A stretch of DNA of 41,148 bases. Origin: Gemmataceae bacterium. Its GTDB lineage: Bacteria > Planctomycetota > Planctomycetia > Gemmatales > Gemmataceae. Numbering within the stretch: position 1 is the first letter of the stretch; each line of letters begins with the position of its first letter. The position numbers and the translations under genes were made by a program. This document shows positions 1,889 through 36,565 of this stretch, piece after piece. The stretch is from NCBI GenBank assembly GCA_009692005.1, contig SHZZ01000032.1:1-41148 (forward strand). Direction: 5' to 3'. Below the pieces are notes generated by a model. That model did no database searches. It was not told where the DNA came from and saw only the letters and a list, made by a program, of their open reading frames with translations.

Positions 1889-2878
1889 TCAACCGGCGGC
1901 CCTGGTAGTGAATTCCTCTAATCCCACAATCCGGCCCTTCCCGGATTTCTTTACCAATTCGCAAATCAATTCAATGGTTTTGAATTCCGGGTCTACCACA
2001 TATAAACAGGAGGGGTGGCCAAGGAAATCGAAAACGGCGCGGTTTTCCAATGCCCATTCCACCCCCGCCCGCACCGCTTTCAAAAACCAATCCAACTTCC
2101 ACCGCCCGGTGCGGAATGCGCCAATGTCGCTGATCGGGCTCATGGGGATTTCCACCAAGCCATCGGGGTAACGGAAAGGTTGAGCCGCGGTCTGCGCCTT
2201 GACCAGAGCCTGAAAAAAATCATTGTCAGGTTCCACGCCGGGTTTTGCAGCAGGGTGGGAAGGATATTTGGAGCTGACCCAGGAGTAGCCAAGTTTTTTC
2301 AGCAGGGCGCGGACCTTGGGCTTGTCGCTTAACCCCTGGGCAAACCCACCGGGCGTGCGAAAACCGCTGGGCCGGATGCCCAACCGGGTGTTGATCGCCG
2401 TGGCTGCCAGGCTAATGTTTTCCTCAATGACCTGGGGAACACTTTTTCCTTCGATCAGCCAGGGGGAGCGGCTGAAACGGAATTGCAAGTCTTGGTGTTT
2501 TTCAGCCAGCAAATACACATGATCATAGGTGTGGTTTCCCACAAAGTGGCCATCCTGAATAATTCGCTTTAACCAATCGACATTTTCCTGTTCCATGGTT
2601 CTGCCGAGGGCAAAACAGTGAACCACGCCCCCGCTGGCTTTCACCCTGGCGCAGGCTTCCTGGGTGTACTTTTTAGTTTGTTCGTTGAGGTTTCCTTTTT
2701 CGTAATCCCAGAAAGTGTCTTCCCACTTGGGAAAGTTTCGGCTCATTTCCAGATCGAGAGAAATGGCGATGAGCGCCTGTTTGTCGTTTGGTTTCTGGAT
2801 GTACCTGGCGCCGGCGGCGAGGCCGAAAGCCGAGGCCGCCGTGCCCGCCAGGAACGCCCGCCGAGTCTGCTGGTTCAT
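1889..2878 (-). CDS. Polysaccharide deacetylase (NodB-like), Tat-exported
   Basis: 329 residues. The start is the ATG of an ATGA overlap (2878-2875) with the upstream hydrolase; the frame stays open upstream to 3082, but that part lies inside the neighbour. The N-terminus has a Tat-like signal (TRRAFLAG, residues 5-12, then an Ala/Gly-rich stretch). The NodB fold shows SLDLE near residue 40 (Asp42 and Glu44 in place of the common FDDG pair), the metal-binding HTYDH (His116 and His120), and FRTPGG further on. Members remove N- or O-acetyl groups from polysaccharides such as chitin, xylan or peptidoglycan. The substrate here cannot be told. It is the last gene of the ATGA-coupled operon. Confidence 0.85.
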   Translation of the reverse strand: MNQQTRRAFLAGTAASAFGLAAGARYIQKPNDKQALIAISLDLEMSRNFPKWEDTFWDYEKGNLNEQTKKYTQEACARVKASGGVVHCFALGRTMEQENVDWLKRIIQDGHFVGNHTYDHVYLLAEKHQDLQFRFSRSPWLIEGKSVPQVIEENISLAATAINTRLGIRPSGFRTPGGFAQGLSDKPKVRALLKKLGYSWVSSKYPSHPAAKPGVEPDNDFFQALVKAQTAAQPFRYPDGLVEIPMSPISDIGAFRTGRWKLDWFLKAVRAGVEWALENRAVFDFLGHPSCLYVVDPEFKTIELICELVKKSGKGRIVGLEEFTTRAAG

Positions 2879-3927
2879 TTTTTCCCTTTCACTTTGGCAT
2901 CCGGGCGAACCCAGGAAATTTGCGTGATCAATTGATTCAAAGCAGCAAAGGAGATGGCGGCATTGGTGGCGAAACGCGGGCTGGAATTCGATGGGAAAGT
3001 CGCCAGCGAGGCATCGCCCACCAGAAAGACATTGAAATCTTTTGACAGATTTTCGTACCCCGCGGTGGTTTTGCAGTAACACATATCCGTGGCGTAACCC
3101 GTGAGAAGAATATTTCGTATGCCCTCTTTCTTCAGAAAATCCCTCATGAGCGGATAGCCTTCGCCATCGTAAATGACCACATCCTGCAGGTGATAGGTAA
3201 TGTCTTTGGTAACCGGGATGGGCAGGTTCCAGAAGCCAGCGTTGTTGTACCTGGGGCCGGCGTCCAATCCGGGGAACTGCTTGAAGTAATCGCGAACCGG
3301 CAACTCCACCGACAGCTTCATCTCCTTGGGCAAGGGTTCACCCTGGTAGATGAACGACTCCAGTTTCTTTTTCAGTTCGGCTTTGCCCTCGTCGGCAGTT
3401 TTGGCATCGGGCTGATTTCTTACCGACCTGTACATTTTGGCCCGAATGGGGTCCTCCTTGCCCGGCAAGCTAAAAAGGGTGAGTTTCGCTTTCCCACGCA
3501 GCGATTGCAAAAACGGGTTGATGACCTGCGAGGTGTGTTTGGCAGCCAGGTGGTTTTTCTCCGGGGTGCAAAAGTCGCAAACGCCCGCGGGTTCAGGGGT
3601 TTTCCACCCTTGGCCATCGTCGATTCCCCAGGGGTGCACCATGACCACGGCAGTGTGTTGCAGCGACAGGCGGTTCAGCATCTCAATGATGCCGCGGGCA
3701 TTGTAGGAAAAGCGCCAGGCGCGAATGGTCATGTCAGAACCGGCATCATGCACCAGCATGGGGGCCTGAAATCTGCGTGTCTCCCGAATGGGCTCGATGA
3801 ATTCCGGAAAATCGGCGAGTAATGGCGCCGGGTCCTTCAACTCAATCAACTGATTGGCATAGACCTTTTCTGCTGGGGCAGTTTGTTGAAAACTCAAAAG
3901 CAGGAGGAGTGAAATGGCCGTGTTCAT
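2875..3927 (-). CDS. Isochorismatase-fold (cysteine hydrolase) family protein, exported
   Basis: 350 residues with a short signal peptide (residues 1-19). The C-terminal half carries the family signature: a strand, then LLTGYATDMCYCKT (nucleophile most likely Cys283), then FLVGDASLATFP. In typical members the first strand ends in the catalytic Asp (V-I-D-M-Q). Here the matching strand appears to be AVVMVHPWG, with His98 at that place and Asp103-Asp104 a few residues later, so the triad may be altered. It is much longer than the usual 180-220 residues because of an N-terminal extension and a middle insert. ATGA overlaps join it to the genes on both sides. A hydrolase of amide or vinyl-ether bonds is the family expectation; the substrate is unknown. 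Confidence 0.75.
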   Translation of the reverse strand: MNTAISLLLLLSFQQTAPAEKVYANQLIELKDPAPLLADFPEFIEPIRETRRFQAPMLVHDAGSDMTIRAWRFSYNARGIIEMLNRLSLQHTAVVMVHPWGIDDGQGWKTPEPAGVCDFCTPEKNHLAAKHTSQVINPFLQSLRGKAKLTLFSLPGKEDPIRAKMYRSVRNQPDAKTADEGKAELKKKLESFIYQGEPLPKEMKLSVELPVRDYFKQFPGLDAGPRYNNAGFWNLPIPVTKDITYHLQDVVIYDGEGYPLMRDFLKKEGIRNILLTGYATDMCYCKTTAGYENLSKDFNVFLVGDASLATFPSNSSPRFATNAAISFAALNQLITQISWVRPDAKVKGKK

Positions 3928-6908
3928 GGCTTGCTTCCTTTATCCAGGTTTTGCTGCAAGTAGCTGAAGAGGTCTCGCAGTTCTTGCGGCTTTAGTTCTT
4001 TCCACAAATTGTCGGGCATGAAGGACACTTCCGATTCGTGCAGCGAGCTGATTTTCTCCCGCGCCACGGCGGTCCTTTCGTTCTTGGCATTGGCCAGAAC
4101 GATCCCGGCAGCGGTATTCTCCACCACCAGGCCGGTGAGCACTCGCCCATCTTTGAGCTCCACCACATAATTCATGTACTCTTTGCGGATGATCGAACCG
4201 GGGTCCACCAGGCTAACCAGGAGGGCATCGCGGTCGAAGCGGTTGCTGGTGGTCAGATCGGGGCCCAGAGTGCCGCCTTCGGCCAGAAATTTGTGACAGG
4301 AGGCGCAGGCCTTGGTGAAGAGCACTTTGCCGTTAATTGGGTTGCCTGGCCCGGCCCTCAGGTCGTTGTTCAACCGGCGGACATCGGCCAGGCGCTCCTC
4401 CGGGGTGCGGGGTCGAATGTTGCCCCAATAATTCCTCAGCAGTTGATTGATGCGAGGGTGGTTATGGAAGCTGGCCAGGCGAAGTTCCTCCAGGGAGAAA
4501 TCCGTGGCGGCGATTTTCTTTCCTTCCACTTCCTGAAGTATTCTTATTGCCCATTCTTTTCTGCCCAACATGCCGTCACGGATGGAAGAGCGAGCCTCGG
4601 CCGACACCCTTTGATAAACAGTCAAAAGGGCCGTGCCCGCCTCGGCTGTGCCCAGCTTAATTAAAGCCTGGATTGCCTGCAGTTGCACCGCTTCCGATTC
4701 AGCCCGGTTCAAGAGCCGGGAGAACAGATTCAAATAATTCACATGGGAAGGCGCTTCGGCCAGCGCCTGGATCAATTTGACCCGGTCCGCGAGCGGCATT
4801 TTTTGGTCCAGGATGATTCCTTCGCCTTTTGTCAAAGCGTTGGCCTCTCCCCAACGAACCAGCAGGATTAAGCTGGGAATGGACTGTGGATTTTCTTGGA
4901 TAATCTCCCGGACGCTTTTCACCAGCACTGGGGCTGAAGCCTTGGCGTTTGTCGGTCTTTCCTCCCAGCCCAGGGCAACTGCAAGCAACAAATGGTCCGT
5001 CCAATTACTGGGCATCAATTCCAGCAACTTGGCAACCTGCCCATCGGCGCTCCCCGCGGCGGCATAACGGCGAACCAGACGCGGCAGGATCTCCTTGTAA
5101 ACCATCAAGTTGGTTTGACAGTGGCGCGCGGTCAGGGCAATGACCTCTTCAGAGTGAGTCTGCGAGAATTTTTCAACAGCCCACCAGAGCAACAAGGGAA
5201 TGTGCGGGTCGGCTTGATCGGGAAAACTCAGGAGGGTATCAAGCAAAGGCAATGCCACCTCGGGGCGCAACCGCCTGGCGGTCGAGGCGAGTTGGCTGCG
5301 CACCCTGGCGCTACTTTCTTTTTTGGCCATGAATAAAAGTTGCTTGCCCAGGGACTCGGGCAGGAAATCCTCGTCTCCCAGGAAGCGGACCGCCCAGGCG
5401 CGGATGTCCTCGTTTTCGTGCCTCAGGGCGAGCGGGGCGAAATCCGGGGTGAACCCGCCGGAGACATAAGCAGCCCAGAAAGCCTTCACTTGTAAATCGG
5501 GGTTGGGTCCATTCAGGGCCAGGTGGCGCAGGGGGAAAATCACTTCGGGGTCGCGCCGTTGAGCCAGCAATCTGGCGGCCGTGCGGGAGTGCCAGCCGTT
5601 TGAGTGGCTCAAAAGGGAAACCAGTTCCTTGGAAGGCAAGCGGGACAGGTCGGGAATGTCGCGCGGCTTTCTACCGTGATGATCGATGCGAAAGACCCGG
5701 CCATTGGAACGGTCCCAGTCGGCATCGGGGTCGGGGTGGGCGGTGCGCTTGTCGTGCCAGTCGGCGGTATAAACGCAGCCATCTGGGCCAAGGCAAAGGT
5801 CGGTGGGCGCGAACCAGGAATCGTTGGCCAGGAGCAATTTTTCGGCATGAGCAGAGCGAAAAGAGGCGCCGTTGGCTTGAAGGGAGTTGGAATAAACGCC
5901 ATGGCCGAGTAAGTCGGCGGCAATGTACTGGCCGCGGAAGGAATCGGGATAGGCGTCGCCGTTGTACACGACTCCGCCCACGGAGACATGCCCGCCAAAG
6001 AAGTTTTTGTGAGGCACATGATCGAAGTAGCCGTAGGCGCGGGGGTGGTGGAGTGCGCCGTGCTTGCCGAACGATTTCCAATAGTAACCGCCCTGAACGC
6101 CATGGAGCATGACGAAGCCGCCATGGTTTGTGGAGTAAAGGAGGTTTCCATGTCGGTCAAAATCGAGTCCCCAGGAATTCCCCCCGCCTTCACAAAAGAG
6201 CTCAAATTTTCGGGTAATGGGGTGGAATCGCCAAACACCCTGTTGAAACTCGATGCCGCGAATGTTTGCCGTTACCGTGCTTCCCTGGCAGCCGTAGAGC
6301 CAGCCGTCCGGCCCCCAGGCGAGTGAATTGGCAACCGAGTGAGCGTCCTCCATGCCGAAACCAGTGAGGAGCGCCTCCGGGTCGCCATCGGGAATGTCGT
6401 TGCCATCGCGGTCTGGGTAAAAGAGTAGATAAGGCACTTGTAGGATATAAACGCCGCCGTGGCCGAAGGCGAAACCGCTGGCGAGGTTCAAGCCGGTGAT
6501 GAAGTCCTTGGGGCGGAGTTTCTGCGGGGCTTGGGGGTCGGGTTCAAGGATGGTCAGTTTGTCGGCGCCTTTTGGCCCGCGCGGAGGCGGCTCGGGCACG
6601 CGGTCGTATTGCGTGCGGGAAAAGCGATCAACTCTGGCGCGCTTCAACCCTTCAGGATTCGGATATTGAAGGTATTGCAAAACCCACAAACGGCCCTTGT
6701 GATCGAAATCAATGGCCACGGGCTGGCGGATCAAGGGCTCGGCCACCACCGCCTCGGCGAAAAATCCCGCCGGCAGCGTCATGCGCCTGGCGGCATCTAC
6801 GGGTGATAAAGGCTGGGCGGCTGAAAATGGACACAGCAGAATGCAGGCCCAAAGGGGGCCCAGGGCAACGGTCCTCCAAAAGAAACCGTTGATTCGCATT
6901 CCACTCAT
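3924..6908 (-). CDS. PVC-type heme-binding protein: membrane-bound dehydrogenase domain, HEAT-like repeats, cytochrome c
   Basis: 994 residues with a signal peptide (about 1-32, FSAAQ). Residues about 35-430 match the PVC N-terminal dehydrogenase-like beta-propeller (AIDFDHKGRLWVLQ, YTADWHDKR). Helical repeats of HEAT type follow (430-820). The C-terminal cytochrome domain has the heme motif CASCHKF near residue 867, and a later Met in VSFMPDNLW could be the second heme ligand. The family is abundant in planctomycetes and verrucomicrobia and is thought to oxidise sugars or alcohols in the periplasm, but no member's substrate can be assumed here. ATGA overlaps at both ends couple it to the PQQ-type propeller gene upstream and to the hydrolase downstream, which argues for one functional unit. 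Confidence 0.9.
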   Translation of the reverse strand: MSGMRINGFFWRTVALGPLWACILLCPFSAAQPLSPVDAARRMTLPAGFFAEAVVAEPLIRQPVAIDFDHKGRLWVLQYLQYPNPEGLKRARVDRFSRTQYDRVPEPPPRGPKGADKLTILEPDPQAPQKLRPKDFITGLNLASGFAFGHGGVYILQVPYLLFYPDRDGNDIPDGDPEALLTGFGMEDAHSVANSLAWGPDGWLYGCQGSTVTANIRGIEFQQGVWRFHPITRKFELFCEGGGNSWGLDFDRHGNLLYSTNHGGFVMLHGVQGGYYWKSFGKHGALHHPRAYGYFDHVPHKNFFGGHVSVGGVVYNGDAYPDSFRGQYIAADLLGHGVYSNSLQANGASFRSAHAEKLLLANDSWFAPTDLCLGPDGCVYTADWHDKRTAHPDPDADWDRSNGRVFRIDHHGRKPRDIPDLSRLPSKELVSLLSHSNGWHSRTAARLLAQRRDPEVIFPLRHLALNGPNPDLQVKAFWAAYVSGGFTPDFAPLALRHENEDIRAWAVRFLGDEDFLPESLGKQLLFMAKKESSARVRSQLASTARRLRPEVALPLLDTLLSFPDQADPHIPLLLWWAVEKFSQTHSEEVIALTARHCQTNLMVYKEILPRLVRRYAAAGSADGQVAKLLELMPSNWTDHLLLAVALGWEERPTNAKASAPVLVKSVREIIQENPQSIPSLILLVRWGEANALTKGEGIILDQKMPLADRVKLIQALAEAPSHVNYLNLFSRLLNRAESEAVQLQAIQALIKLGTAEAGTALLTVYQRVSAEARSSIRDGMLGRKEWAIRILQEVEGKKIAATDFSLEELRLASFHNHPRINQLLRNYWGNIRPRTPEERLADVRRLNNDLRAGPGNPINGKVLFTKACASCHKFLAEGGTLGPDLTTSNRFDRDALLVSLVDPGSIIRKEYMNYVVELKDGRVLTGLVVENTAAGIVLANAKNERTAVAREKISSLHESEVSFMPDNLWKELKPQELRDLFSYLQQNLDKGSKP

Positions 6909-8164
6909 TCCTTCGGGCGGCTACTGATGCAATAAAGGTGCTGGAAAGTGCGGATGAAAATCTCACCGTTGGAAATGGCAGGGGTGGCGTCGGTATGTTC
7001 CCGCAGGCTGTTCTTCCCAAGGATTTTGAACTCCGGGCCGACAGCCACGATATAAGTGTCCCCGGCCTGGTCCGTTGCCAGGAGTTTCCCATCCACGAGA
7101 AGAGTGCTGGCCCAGTGGCTGCCCCCGAGGCGCTGCGATTTCCACAGGTCCTCGCCCGTCTTCAGGTCAAGGCATTGAACTGTGCCCGGGCCGGCGTTGG
7201 CCATGTAGCAATGGTTCCCGCTGATGATCCCCGAGCCGATCCGCTGCGGGTTTTGGGTCTTATGATGCCACAACCGCGTTGGTTTTTCCCCCTGGGCCAG
7301 GGTTTCCAAGTTCAGAGCCATGGCCGATCCATGAAAACCCGACATGGCCACCAGAGTGTTCCCCGATGCAATGGGTGAAGTGTAAACCAGCTTGGTCAAA
7401 CCCTCGGCGGTCCACAGGCATTTTCCTGTGAGAGGGTCGTAACCCTTGACGGCGTTGGGCCAGCTCATGAGCAATTGATCCTTGCCCTGGACTTTGTGGA
7501 TAATAGGCGTGCTCCAGGAACCGATCCACTCCTGGCCCTTTTCCAACGCCGCCTTGCCCCCCGTTTCCTCGGCCCGCCAAACTTCTTTACCGGTTTCCTT
7601 TTCCATGGCGATCAGGAAAGTCTGGGTGCCGGGACCGCAATTCAAAAGCACCAGGTTCTTGTACAACACCGGCGAGGAGGCGTTGCCCCAGATGTGGATA
7701 AACGACCCCAGGTCTTTTTTCCAAAGCTGGTTCCCCTCAAAGTCGTAACAAACCACCCCGGCCGAGCCGTGAGAAGCAATCACCAGTTTCCCATCAGTAA
7801 CCGGCGTGGCGGAACAGTATGGGTTGGTGCCATGCGTCGGTTCGTTCCCTTGAAAAGGAGTAACTTTCTCCCAGAGAACTTTGCCATGCTTCCGGTCGAT
7901 GCAAAGAACAGCCCGCTGCATTCCCTTTTTATCAATCGACTGGGTAAGAAAGATTTTATCTTCCCAAACGATAGGGCTAGAAGAGCCAGGTGAAGGGAGT
8001 TTCAGCTTCCAGCGGACATTTTCCGTCGCTGACCATTTCCAGGGGATGGCGGTTTCCTGGCAGGCCCCATTTCCCCCCGGTCCGCGAAAGGCGGGCCAAT
8101 TCCCGGCGGGAGAGGCAAGAGTCATGGTCAACATGAATAAAAAAGGAACAGCAAAGAATCGCAT
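6905..8164 (-). CDS. PQQ-like (BamB-type) beta-propeller protein, exported; first gene of operon
   Basis: 419 residues with a signal peptide (about 1-20). The mature start NWPAFRGPGGNG is characteristic of the planctomycete PQQ-like repeat family. Repeated blades carry the G-K-x-x-W signature (HGKVLWEK, TGKEVWRA, TGKCLWTA, TGEDLWKS). Such proteins are eight-bladed propellers; some bind pyrroloquinoline quinone, many serve only as scaffolds, and no catalytic residue can be assigned here. AGGAG lies 8 nt before the ATG. The stop overlaps the start of the PVC heme gene by 4 nt. The 60-nt stretch upstream, after the NTF2 gene's terminator, holds at best a weak promoter (TTGAAC, 17 nt, GAGCAT). 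Confidence 0.87.
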   Translation of the reverse strand: MRFFAVPFLFMLTMTLASPAGNWPAFRGPGGNGACQETAIPWKWSATENVRWKLKLPSPGSSSPIVWEDKIFLTQSIDKKGMQRAVLCIDRKHGKVLWEKVTPFQGNEPTHGTNPYCSATPVTDGKLVIASHGSAGVVCYDFEGNQLWKKDLGSFIHIWGNASSPVLYKNLVLLNCGPGTQTFLIAMEKETGKEVWRAEETGGKAALEKGQEWIGSWSTPIIHKVQGKDQLLMSWPNAVKGYDPLTGKCLWTAEGLTKLVYTSPIASGNTLVAMSGFHGSAMALNLETLAQGEKPTRLWHHKTQNPQRIGSGIISGNHCYMANAGPGTVQCLDLKTGEDLWKSQRLGGSHWASTLLVDGKLLATDQAGDTYIVAVGPEFKILGKNSLREHTDATPAISNGEIFIRTFQHLYCISSRPKE

Positions 8165-10397: not shown

Positions 10398-11541
10398 ATG
10401 CATGGATTAATTTTTCTCGAGTTGTAAAGGTTTGTGGATAAAAAAGCAGGCCCAAAAGCCTGGGGCGCTTTATTTACCGAAGCGAATTTGGCCTTTAAAC
10501 CGTATGTCGCCATCAAAGTCTATCCGGATGAGGAAGTTTTAGCCCTAATTGGCGCCACCTGCCGAATTTTCAAACAGCCCAAGGAAAAAGTTGAAACCGT
10601 TTCTTACAGATCAGATGGTATTTCCAATCCGCCAGGCAACGAAAATGGGTCGCCGAGTTCCGAAGAATATGCCTTTTTAAAACCCCCAATGGAATCAGGA
10701 GAATTGGGCGCGATAGGGCACTACAGAATTTTGCATGCCCTTGGAAAAGGGGGCATGGGCATTGTTTTCCGAGCGGTCGATGTTCGCTTGAAACGGGTGG
10801 TGGCTTTAAAAATATTGGAGCCCAGTTACGCTAATGAAGCGCCAATGAAACAGCGTTTTCTTCGGGAAGCTCGGGCCATGGCCGCCATTAAAAGCGAATA
10901 TGTAATTTCCATTTATGAAGTGAATGAAATAGAGGAAATGCCCTTTTTGGTGATGGAATTTCTTGAGGGAAGTTCCCTGGAAACCCAGCTACAAGGAGGT
11001 AGGAAACTTGCCTTTTTCCCAGGTGATGAAAATCGGGAAAGAGGTTTGCATCGGTCTGGCAGCCGCCCACGCCAAGGGATTGATTCATCGAGACATCAAC
11101 CCGTCCAACTTGTGGCTGGAAAAGCCGCATGGCCGCGTCAAAATCCTCGACTTTGGCCTGGCCAGAAGTAATGCCGACACCGTTGAAATAGCCAAGGTGG
11201 GTGAAATTCTGGGAACACCGCCCTTCATGGCGCCAGAACAAGCCTACGGTAACCCCCTGGATTTCCACACCGATTTGTTTAGCCTCGGTTGTGTTTTGTA
11301 TTGGCTTACCACAGGCGTCCTCCCCTTCCAGGCAAAAGATGACTTTTCCACCTTGGTGGCATTGTCAAAAGACAAATCTCCTTCGCCCAAGTCGATCTGC
11401 AAGGATCTGCCTGAGGAATTTTCCGATCTGGTTCTTTGGCTACTGGAAAAAGTCCCGACTGAGCGGCCGGAATCTGCCATGGCCGTTTTTGACAAGCTGT
11501 CTGAAATCGAAACCAGGATGGCCAATGAATCCAAGGGGTGA
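10398..11541 (+). pseudogene. Broken gene: truncated H-NOX (heme NO-binding) domain fused to a Ser/Thr protein kinase
   Basis: From ATG 10398 the frame reads MHGLIFLEL, an in-frame TAA (10425-10427), then RFVDKKAGPKAW and, later, VYPDEEVLALIGA. This is the N-terminus of the HNOB/H-NOX family. Homology stops near residue 65, before the region that holds the proximal heme His and the Y-S-R motif, so heme binding is not expected. A 40-residue linker leads to a kinase domain: Gly loop GKGGMGIVF, VALKIL (Lys), then HRDINPSN, DFGLA and APEQ. The kinase needs a shift of one base near 11008-11015; one extra T in TTTTT restores RKLAFSQVMKIG. The invariant Lys of HRDxKxxN is Asn. A GTG at 10434, with AAAGG 4 nt before it, could restart translation after the stop. 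There is no transmembrane segment or C-terminal extension. Confidence 0.72.
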
Positions 11542-33923: not shown

Positions 33924-34961
33924 TCAAGAGGAAAATTGCCAGCCCCAAACCTCGGGTGAACGGACCCCAGGGCGAATCTCTCCACCGGGAATGATCCAGA
34001 TTGAATTCCATTTCACACAGGGAACAGTAACTCGCGGAGCAGGAATTTTTCCTCTTTCCTGCCATTGGTCCTTGGCCGCCGCGTAAAACCAAAGTGTGGA
34101 CGAGAAACCCTTGTGCTTTTCCGGGGCGATGCCAACTTGCTTGCCGTCGTCACCGCCCAGCAAAAAAAATCCGTCCTCATTGGCTGGAGCGGGTGAAGGG
34201 GGCGCCACCGCCGGGGCGGGAAGGGAAGCGATTTTTACCCATCCTTCCCTGGTGAAAGAAAAGGCGTCGTCTAAAAAACGGCGGACCCAGACGCCGTTCT
34301 GTTTTCTCAATTCCGCCCCGCCTGCGATGATCAGCTTGCCTTGAAAGCTTGCTGCCAGTGGTAAAATCCTCCCCTGTCCCGGCAATGGCTCGCCTACGAT
34401 CCACTTGGGAGTTTTCTCTTCCAGATCCATTTGGTAATGGTTTTTCAAACCAGGGGCGTCGGGGCCTTCCTGTCCGCCAACGATGTGAAGGATGCTGCCG
34501 GTCAAAGCGCCGCCAGCATTGGCCAGAGGAATGGGCAAAGAAGGCAGATCGATTCGGAACAGTTTCCCTTCGAGCCATTCCAGGCTGAATGCTTCAGGGA
34601 AATGGCCGTCGGCATTACTGCCACCTACACAGATTACACGATTGTTAAAAGACGCGCTGATGCCATAGGCCAGCGGGCGGGCGAGTTTGCCCGCGGACTT
34701 CCACTGCCCGTTGGGTTTTTCCAGAATAAAAATGGAGTCGTGCCAGGATTTGATTCCACCTTCCCAGGGTTTTTTCCCGGGGAAATTAGCGCCCCCGGCC
34801 AGCAATAACGATCCATGGGATACCCCGGCAAAGGGTGAGGCAAATCCTTCGCGGTCTGGTAGTGGAGAGATTTTTTTCCACTCTTGGGCCGGGGAAACCC
34901 CTGGCAAGAGAAGAAAACCGGCCGCGCTAACCAGAGAAAGAAGGGTTTTCGACAAGTTCAT
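33924..34961 (-). CDS. Kelch-type beta-propeller, cyclically permuted mutarotase (NanM/YjhT-like)
   Basis: 345 residues with a signal peptide (about 1-25, SPAQ). The family signature is clear: GFASPFAGVSHGSLLLAGGA, then FPGKKPWEGG and WHDSIFILEKP, with Kelch blades marked by double glycines (VGGSN, VGGQEG, IAGGAE, LGGDD). In E. coli NanM converts sialic acid anomers or epimers in the periplasm; planctomycete relatives may act on other sugars. The start codon overlaps the stop of the YHYH gene by 4 nt (ATGA), so the two are coupled. Confidence 0.85.
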   Translation of the reverse strand: MNLSKTLLSLVSAAGFLLLPGVSPAQEWKKISPLPDREGFASPFAGVSHGSLLLAGGANFPGKKPWEGGIKSWHDSIFILEKPNGQWKSAGKLARPLAYGISASFNNRVICVGGSNADGHFPEAFSLEWLEGKLFRIDLPSLPIPLANAGGALTGSILHIVGGQEGPDAPGLKNHYQMDLEEKTPKWIVGEPLPGQGRILPLAASFQGKLIIAGGAELRKQNGVWVRRFLDDAFSFTREGWVKIASLPAPAVAPPSPAPANEDGFFLLGGDDGKQVGIAPEKHKGFSSTLWFYAAAKDQWQERGKIPAPRVTVPCVKWNSIWIIPGGEIRPGVRSPEVWGWQFSS

Positions 34962-36565
34962 TGTTTGGGCGGTCCTTTTTTCCCGCCCTTTGGGAAACCT
35001 TTCTTTTCCTTGTCCTTGCCCCCGCCAGGCGGCCCGCCCCGCATCCTGTTCTCCGGGTCGGGCACACCCCAGTACCCGCCGATGATGTGGGGGAACATTC
35101 CCGGCGTGACATGGTAGTGCCAGCCGCGTTCCTCATCGAAATGCACATTGAATTCGTTAAGGGGGTTGGATTTCGCTTCGCGCGCCAACTGCCCTTTTGT
35201 TTCATAGGGGCCATAAAGGGGGAAGCCGTCAAAAGCGAAGCCAATCACGGGTGAGTGGGCTTCACCTTCATCGGTCCAGGGTGATTTCAAACAAACGGGA
35301 TACTTGTGGTAATGATACTGTCCTTTCTGAGCGGGGTGGCCGCAGCAGCGGTCGAGCCGCCAAACGGCATCCTCGTCCAAGAGGTGATCGAAAGGGTTAA
35401 AGAAAATTATTCCATTGCAAGCGACGCCGATCGGTCCCATGGGTAGCGCCTGATCGTTGTTGTTTTTGTTTTTCATGGCCACGCGTTTGGGATTTTCCAG
35501 CGGTTGCAAGGGGAGGAACAAAGTGAAATTTTGCTCCGCAATAATGTTGGGATTCCCATCCAGGGCTCGCCAGCGGTCAGGAAAAATAGCGGTGGGGTGG
35601 TTGGGTAAGTTTTTGGAGCGGATTACCAGGCGGCCCTGATTCACGCTGATGCTCACATTGTCCTCAATGAACCGATCCTCCTGGACCAAGGCGCCAGTTT
35701 TATCCAGGTAGCCCTTGCGCAGCCAAGAGGTAGTATTCCCCGCGAAAGGGGCGATGAGTTTGTCTGATTTATAAAGCAATTGGTCGGCATTGGTGTGGTC
35801 AAATTGTTTTGGCAGGGCCTTGCCGGCCTTCCTGGGGTCGAAATACCAACGGCCGCCCAGGGGAATCAGGCTAGCAAGGATTGCTTGGGATTCCGCCGGT
35901 CCCTTTTTAAAAGAAAATTCATTCGGATCGGGGATAGGGTTTACTTCAAGCCAGTTGATATAGAATTCGCTCTTGGCCCCTTTCCCCGCGCCATTTTCAA
36001 ACCCGGCGCTGACACGAAGCGTATCGATTTCCGGAAAAGGGGTGCGGAAATCAAAAGAAAAAACCCGCCAGGTGGATGGGCCCAATTTGCGGCTGGTTCC
36101 CGAATCCAGCAGCGTTTTTCTATCGAGTTCCACCTGGGGAAAGATGAGTTTTTTTACCTGGTCGAGCGGGGTTTTTCCCTGATCTTTGAAAAACTCGGCT
36201 TTCAAGTACAAGGCGTCTTTTTCCACATGGAAATTTTCCTGGGCCAGGGCGCGAAGGGTTAGCCGGAACCAGCGGCCGGTTTTGGCGGTGATTCCTCGAA
36301 GCGTGGCGCGAATTTCCCCGGAGGCTGACTTTGCAGGACCGCTAGCTGGATCCGAAAAAAAGCGGACTCCCCAGCCGGAGGATTCCTTCTGCAATTCTCC
36401 CAGGTTGGCGTAAAGGGCGTTTCCCAAAATTTCGTAGCCCTGGGGAAACTGGCTCTGCCCTGGCAGCAGACTGGGGTTTGGATTGACAGGCTCCAGAGAT
36501 TTCCCCCCGCCAGCCAGCCACAACAAACTCCATGTAAGAAAGAAAGCCGCGACAATCTGCCGCAT
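34958..36565 (-). CDS. YHYH domain protein, exported
   Basis: 535 residues; AAGGA lies 7 nt before ATG 36565 and a signal peptide spans about 1-23. The C-terminal part contains the namesake YHYH motif (GQYHYHKYPVC, near residue 422) followed by GFAFDGFPLYGPYE and WHYHVTPGMFPHIIGGYWG. The N-terminal half is beta-rich and unrecognised. The last 30 residues are a Gly/Pro/Lys tail (basic, low complexity). YHYH domains are found in secreted proteins of unknown role; clustered His and Cys suggest metal binding. ATGA overlap with the mutarotase downstream. Confidence 0.85.
   Translation of the reverse strand: MRQIVAAFFLTWSLLWLAGGGKSLEPVNPNPSLLPGQSQFPQGYEILGNALYANLGELQKESSGWGVRFFSDPASGPAKSASGEIRATLRGITAKTGRWFRLTLRALAQENFHVEKDALYLKAEFFKDQGKTPLDQVKKLIFPQVELDRKTLLDSGTSRKLGPSTWRVFSFDFRTPFPEIDTLRVSAGFENGAGKGAKSEFYINWLEVNPIPDPNEFSFKKGPAESQAILASLIPLGGRWYFDPRKAGKALPKQFDHTNADQLLYKSDKLIAPFAGNTTSWLRKGYLDKTGALVQEDRFIEDNVSISVNQGRLVIRSKNLPNHPTAIFPDRWRALDGNPNIIAEQNFTLFLPLQPLENPKRVAMKNKNNNDQALPMGPIGVACNGIIFFNPFDHLLDEDAVWRLDRCCGHPAQKGQYHYHKYPVCLKSPWTDEGEAHSPVIGFAFDGFPLYGPYETKGQLAREAKSNPLNEFNVHFDEERGWHYHVTPGMFPHIIGGYWGVPDPENRMRGGPPGGGKDKEKKGFPKGGKKGPPKQ

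Follow-up and report, generated by a model that had tools for sequence, protein, structure and literature searches.

Three genes that lie side by side on the minus strand of a planctomycete contig, encoding a PVC-type heme protein, an isochorismatase-like protein (hereafter Isoch) and a NodB-like protein, form a conserved and linked three-gene unit, a conclusion well supported by the gene neighborhoods and genome distributions described below. They belong to a four-gene operon at positions 1889-8164 of contig SHZZ01000032.1 from a Gemmataceae bacterium (assembly GCA_009692005.1), and the whole 41,148-nt stretch of this contig is called the window here. Because relatives of the three genes, which we call the trio, are encoded side by side in scattered planctomycetes and a few verrucomicrobia, the three proteins probably work together. 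The remaining gene, encoding a PQQ-type propeller, is probably a local extra in this lineage and incidental to the trio. The features concerned are as follows.

6905..8164, minus strand: PQQ_2/BamB-like propeller gene, 419 amino acids, first in the operon
6905..6908, minus strand: ATGA overlap of the propeller and PVC-heme genes
3924..6908, minus strand: PVC-heme gene, 994 amino acids, second in the operon
3924..3927, minus strand: ATGA overlap of the PVC-heme and Isoch genes
2875..3927, minus strand: isochorismatase-like (Isoch) gene, 350 amino acids, third in the operon
2875..2878, minus strand: ATGA overlap of the Isoch and NodB-like genes
1889..2878, minus strand: NodB-like gene, 329 amino acids, fourth in the operon

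A first-pass annotation had described these four genes and a 4-nt ATGA overlap at each junction; the coordinates, the strand and the overlaps were all confirmed, no internal stops are present in the four minus-strand open reading frames (ORFs), and the four family names agree with the Pfam and NCBIfam matches.

Conservation of the trio

Isoch relatives were sought in named genomes, which gave 164 stretches; the best 80 loci were kept, which biases the locus counts toward close relatives. The following numbers come from 94 unique Isoch loci, 43 long loci and 72 gene pairs, all deduplicated by sequence and with the window among them, and one locus table of neighbor matches contains duplicates. 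Relatives of the PVC and NodB proteins were repeatedly found beside Isoch, mostly with 41–57% identity for the former and 48–64% for the latter. The 72 unique same-strand pairs of adjacent core genes fall into five ordered types: PVC followed by Isoch (22), Isoch by NodB (28), NodB by Isoch (13), PVC by NodB (7) and NodB by PVC (2). When we looked at the 43 unique Isoch loci of at least 19 kb, both partners were present in 17, NodB only in 10 and PVC only in 2. The trio recurs in Planctomycetota and in some Verrucomicrobiota in several gene orders, and the order PVC-Isoch-NodB is kept in five verrucomicrobial loci (L036, L052, L076, L082 and L085). L032 likewise has all three genes next to one another. 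In two genomes, G324 (L147) and G341 (L146), the NodB-PVC pair is divergent from Isoch, and in G048 PVC is found at a different locus, beside an additional copy of NodB. DUF1501 was considered as a further partner and rejected: ORFs of its cluster occur in 27 loci, yet on either strand and at varying distances, and the window copy is on the opposite strand.

The presence of Isoch and NodB is also correlated among genomes. Among 294 genomes of the phylum, 10 have strong Isoch matches, and nine of these 10 also carry NodB, which none of the other genomes has (9 with both genes, 1 with Isoch alone and 0 with NodB alone; Fisher test, 2.5e-16, and 1.8e-9 by genus), while in 61 genomes of the family the corresponding numbers were 8, 1 and 2 (1.3e-7, and 1.8e-5 by genus). 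These tests handle kinship by pooling per genus alone, and both samples include the window genome; weak Isoch matches in G087 and G326 (36–37% over 60–76 residues, 60 in G087) were excluded from the counts. Within each of the genera g235, g241 and g242 some genomes carry both genes and others neither; single presence was seen in g223, with Isoch alone in one genome, and in g224, with NodB alone in one. Isoch was detected in 3 of 387 genomes of Verrucomicrobiota (G354, G592 and G726); NodB is beside it in G592, and neither partner lies within 10 kb in G726.

Overlaps of 4 nt join 4 of the 21 codirectional gene pairs of the window, three of them in this operon and one among the remaining 18 pairs, as counted on a window gene list that was picked by hand with some genes skipped. 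A further ATGA overlap of the window, at 34958-34961 on the minus strand, joins the genes at 34958-36565 and 33924-34961. Three consecutive overlaps of this kind are unlikely to arise by chance; a 4-nt overlap is, all the same, an ordinary mark of an operon and no mark of a complex. Among relatives, a usable ATGA was found in 13 of the 72 core pairs including the window's two, and the start is uncertain in three of the 13 (L052, L059 and L068) because the matched region begins 75–198 nt later. The 4-nt overlap, from which strict translational coupling had been proposed, is present at the three junctions in the window and is not kept strictly in its relatives.

The PVC-type heme protein

The PVC protein consists of a DUF7133/TIGR02604 propeller, a HEAT region and a TIGR02603 c-type heme domain, and it passes the cut-offs of both TIGR models (224.9 bits against 122.2 for TIGR02604, 105.7 against 68.15 for TIGR02603). 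Its CxxCH motif is located at residues 868-872, and C868, C871, H872 and M964 are invariant in 22 of 22 rows of an alignment (A3) of the window protein with 21 of 24 PVC proteins, L047, L055 and L059 being left out. The heme domain matches the solved diheme protein 7zs0. In its three-part make-up of propeller, HEAT and c-type heme, the window protein resembles Lac161_ORF7 (AGW45552), a TIGR02604, HEAT and cytochrome c protein that was purified and hydrolysed lactose (PMC5342196).

Proteins of this type are numerous in each genome (26 matched stretches, about 20 frames, in the window genome), so the presence of PVC alone says little. The PVC search in the family sample matched paralogues in 40 of the 61 genomes and was left out of the co-occurrence analysis, and in the phylum sample PVC relatives of at least 44% were also found in G216 and G200, both of which are without Isoch. 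In a FastTree phylogeny of 54 rows, all 30 rows labeled as linked to the partners fall into one clade of 35 rows with a local support of 100, and the remaining 19 rows lie outside it. The tree was built from matches spanning at least 700 positions, from which the partial L032, L034, L071, L074 and L081 are absent, and the linked label was set by hand and covers partners several kb apart as well as the NodB-only rows L115 and L158. Five rows of the clade are unlinked. Four of them come from G181, G227, G238 and G266, in which Isoch and NodB lie elsewhere in the genome than the clade PVC; the fifth comes from G216, in which neither Isoch nor NodB was found though its PVC is in the linked clade. 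The window member differs from PVC-type heme proteins at large in belonging to a clade that is linked to NodB and Isoch. Such proteins are many-copied, and a full-text search of an open-access collection under their family names listed a single paper; a clade tied to two hydrolases offers a small and concrete system in which to search for a substrate.

The isochorismatase-like protein

Among the four proteins, Isoch has the weakest family assignment by sequence: it scores 26.2 bits against the Pfam Isochorismatase model (PF00857; cut-off 27), or 27.3 with its neighbors in frame, and relatives in five other genomes score 31–43 bits. No close solved relatives were found by sequence. The AlphaFold2 (AF2) model, with a predicted local distance difference test score (pLDDT) of 93.3, has the isochorismatase/cysteine hydrolase fold; its closest matches among solved folds are RutB, TrtA and BiuH (VIA Z 15–16, 12–16% identity), and it superimposes on RutB (8bln_F) with a VIA Z of 16.0 and 3.0 Å over 187 residues. 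The N-terminus is Sec-like as read by eye.

In an alignment (A1) of the window protein with 60 of 97 Isoch proteins, H98, D103, D254 and C283 are present in 61 of 61 rows, and H98, D103 and D254 are kept in at least 97% of the full set of 98 Isoch rows. Cys283 aligns with the canonical nucleophile cysteine of the GxxTxxC region (hhalign E-value 2.9e-8). The catalytic triad of BiuH is Asp36, Lys142 and Cys175 (PMC5806882). The position of the Asp can be traced through a family of seven sequences (L175, L176, L183-L185, L188 and L190), which we call the bridge family and which matches the window Isoch family with an E-value of 7.1e-6 and canonical isochorismatases with 4.1e-10. By this route the canonical Asp aligns with the bridge Asp and the bridge Asp with His98, followed two residues on by a common Trp. 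All three MAFFT modes placed the bridge Asp on H98 in every one of 56 cells; when all three sets were aligned jointly, the canonical Asp fell on H98 in 112, 48 and 112 of 128 cells depending on the mode, and a merged canonical and bridge profile also put it on H98 (E-value 1.2e-9). A direct profile alignment to canonical isochorismatases, forced to full length, opened a five-residue gap and then placed the Asp on D103, and multiple alignments without the bridge family placed it on D103, D61 or D39. On the strength of the bridge-family and joint multiple alignments, the invariant His98 probably stands in place of the catalytic Asp and is favored over D103 or D61. As for the triad Lys, none aligned at the expected place in a gapped local alignment, in which the invariant D254 is nearby.

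Window Isoch therefore has the fold and the nucleophile Cys in common with RutB, BiuH and TrtA, and differs from them in its longer chain, its Sec-like N-terminus and the probable replacement of the catalytic Asp by His98. With the bridge family it shares a signal-like N-terminus, the Trp and the Cys, whereas the position aligned with His98 is an Asp in the bridge proteins. Isoch could show how the isochorismatase fold changes its catalytic residues. The bridge family is a second planctomycete isochorismatase-like family, in which the Asp and Cys are kept and no Lys is evident; its member L190 carries a ThuA domain.

The NodB-like protein

The NodB-like protein matches Polysacc_deac_1 (PF01522) with 44.1 bits (cut-off 23.1) and is below each equivalog cut-off among the models matched. 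NodB/CE4 deacetylases have Asp-His-His metal ligands together with catalytic motifs, and the metal motif of CE4 enzymes is TFDDG. D42, E44, H116, H120, R174 and H288 are invariant in 41 of 41 rows of an alignment (A2) of the window protein with 40 of 50 NodB proteins, and the expected metal ligands and catalytic motifs are found in D42, H116 and H120 and in R174 and H288. The N-terminus is of the Tat type as read by eye, with an RR that is nearly invariant across the family. The structures nearest to the AF2 model (pLDDT 91.2) are 3rxz, HP0310 and 3s6o, then 1z7a and PuuE, with a VIA Z of 23.6 to 3rxz, 23.1 to HP0310 and 21.4 to PuuE. The predicted fold (Z 21–24), the D/H/H metal site and the Arg and His motifs are accordingly common to the window protein and the CE4/HP0310-PuuE branch, while the Tat-type signal and a D-x-E metal motif rather than TFDDG set it apart from CE4.

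Genes around the trio

A Gfo/Idh-type gene lies ahead of Isoch in L019, L026, L033, L037 and L056, and in the stretches examined these five loci have neither PVC nor NodB. The best NCBIfam match of the gene in L019, L033 and L056 is glycoside 3-dehydrogenase, with 132–150 bits against a cut-off of 750. Sugar-type genes were also seen in one strand run with Isoch, namely an FGGY kinase gene and a fucose-isomerase-like gene in L069, an FGGY kinase gene in L087 and a 3-keto-disaccharide hydrolase gene in L079. The Pfam scan of neighbors covered 37 proteins picked by hand.

Two kinds of neighbor deserve separate mention. In L009 (2610-3968) and L073 (11055-12404) the gene after Isoch encodes an Nramp-type metal transporter, and genes of similar length occupy this place in L005-L008. 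In L021 (5599-7044), L070 (6819-8225) and L078 (7422-8837), a gene for a ceramidase-like protein lies next to members of the trio.

Possible function of the trio

We tentatively prefer the reading that the trio is an exported oxidation-plus-deacylation module for one substituted carbohydrate, encoded alongside a propeller gene that is local to this lineage as far as the loci seen show. The export signals read by eye suggest that all three proteins act outside the cytoplasm, and the mixed neighbors, together with the lactose-hydrolysing PVC-type protein, point by analogy to a carbohydrate. The substrate common to all three would most likely be a sugar or short glycan that carries an N-acyl or other substituent. 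The NodB-like metalloenzyme would remove the acyl group; the heme-propeller protein would oxidize the sugar, or cleave it via a transient oxidation, and its c-type heme would pass electrons to the respiratory chain; and the isochorismatase-fold cysteine enzyme would hydrolyse the remaining amide or a similar bond. The order of these three reactions is a guess. In agreement with the first-pass annotation, which knew of no description of these genes as a unit, full-text searches of an open-access collection (titles and starts of abstracts) found none of the trio.

Several observations weigh against this reading. Neither partner was present in 14 of the 43 long Isoch loci; Isoch occurs without NodB in G291 and G333, and NodB without Isoch in G328 (82% complete) and G347 (79% complete). 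L026, L033 and L037 belong to one Isoch clade, so that the Gfo/Idh pairs represent few independent cases. A Pfam match was absent in 10 of the 37 scanned neighbors, and most of the others are non-sugar proteins, including Nramp, ceramidase-like, LysR, radical SAM, gyrase B, aminotransferase, 5'-nucleotidase-domain and signal peptidase proteins; because the neighbors are mixed and mostly of this kind, no single substrate stands out. In addition, the nearest folds of Isoch act on ureides. Among those of the NodB-like protein, PuuE has a small imide as its substrate, and HP0310 showed no activity on the compounds with which it was assayed (PMC3084791).

The last points lead to the main rival, which we consider unlikely though not negligible: the trio may degrade a small cyclic imide or ureide, with the NodB-like protein opening the ring, Isoch cleaving a ureido or amide bond and the PVC protein oxidizing the product. 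PuuE allantoinase would be the model for the NodB-like protein, and BiuH, RutB and N-carbamoylsarcosine amidase the models for Isoch. It is consistent with the nearest folds of both proteins, with the relation of HP0310 to PuuE, which recognises a cyclic imide as its small substrate (PMC3084791), and with a 5'-nucleotidase-domain gene that follows Isoch in L020. A common fold is, however, no proof of function, and the whole trio appears to be exported. D42, H116 and H120 are retained in the NodB family, whereas PuuE differs from HP0310 in not binding metal (PMC3084791); the active site of Isoch is probably unlike that of BiuH and RutB; and among the hand-picked neighbors sugar-type genes turned up in more loci than genes of nucleotide or ureide type.

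The exported carbohydrate module can also be drawn more narrowly, as an oxidative deacylation of a substituted sugar in which the Isoch site is a remodelled Cys-His(-Asp) arrangement of C283, H98 and perhaps D254, and the PVC-heme protein oxidizes or cleaves the sugar and transfers electrons to its heme. If true, it would give one clade of PVC-type heme proteins a cellular role. So specific a version is decidedly unlikely to be right in full, and the lack of support for H98 in the alignments without the bridge family counts against the remodelled site.

About as small a chance, if not a slightly smaller one, is left for a role of the trio in modifying the cell's own envelope or a secreted glycan, by deacetylating and oxidizing exopolysaccharide or peptidoglycan, in which Isoch would be a processing or binding subunit. 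Peptidoglycan and exopolysaccharide deacetylases belong to the NodB superfamily and the apparent export of the three proteins would suit this role, as would the probably changed active-site residues of Isoch, because of which its activity is not assured. On the other hand, the patchy presence of Isoch (strong matches in 10 of the 294 phylum genomes and in 3 of 387 of Verrucomicrobiota) better fits an accessory catabolic trait, and the 37 scanned neighbors included no glycosyltransferase or polymer-export gene.

The propeller gene

The first protein of the operon is a BamB-like propeller that matches PQQ_2 (PF13360) with 83.2 bits. It does not reach the cut-off of the PQQ-dependent dehydrogenase model TIGR03075 (36.2 bits against 480.05) or that of the BamB model TIGR03300 (58.3 against 285.2), and 29 stretches of its own genome match it, itself included. 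No PQQ-type gene was found ahead of PVC, or beside the trio on its strand, in the other loci seen. Distant PQQ-type genes (22–29% identity) adjoin Isoch in L012 and L013 and NodB in L215, on the opposite strand in all three, and in L020 such a gene lies 5.5 kb after Isoch on the same strand; the propeller was rejected as a conserved partner on these grounds. Since no same-strand PQQ-type partner occurs beside the set in the other loci seen and the propeller has so many matches in its own genome, the conserved unit comprises three genes and not four.

That all four genes form one functional unit is accordingly very unlikely. The third ATGA overlap at 6905-6908, the unbroken strand run and the distant PQQ-type genes just mentioned speak for it, but the scores are far under both curated cut-offs, other loci do not repeat the arrangement, and the gene ahead of PVC is on the opposite strand in 11 of the 21 loci where one was listed (greedy ORFs). 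The earlier proposal of one pathway or complex can thus be upheld for the trio, through same-strand adjacency in two phyla, co-occurrence and the linked PVC clade, and is not supported for the propeller; a gene-neighborhood search, which had been suggested as the check, returned the three families together and the four-gene set in no other locus seen. Least probable of all is an adjacency of the trio by chance, or by a general clustering of exported proteins that have no common substrate: the abundance of PVC-type genes and the correction of the Fisher tests for descent by genus pooling alone leave room for it, and repeated adjacency in different gene orders, the linked PVC clade and the joint presence or absence within g235, g241 and g242, set against the single presence in g223 and g224, argue the other way.

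Other features of the window

Downstream of the operon, the minus-strand gene at 1-1733 of the window has an AhpC/TSA redoxin domain at its start and a CxxCH-like motif further on. A terminator-like hairpin is found at 1822-1809, between the operon and this gene, and such matches are no rarer in shuffled sequences. On the plus strand, the overlapping frames 10434-11171 and 10963-11541 each hold part of one protein kinase domain (10434-11541), the result of a genomic frameshift or an assembly error.

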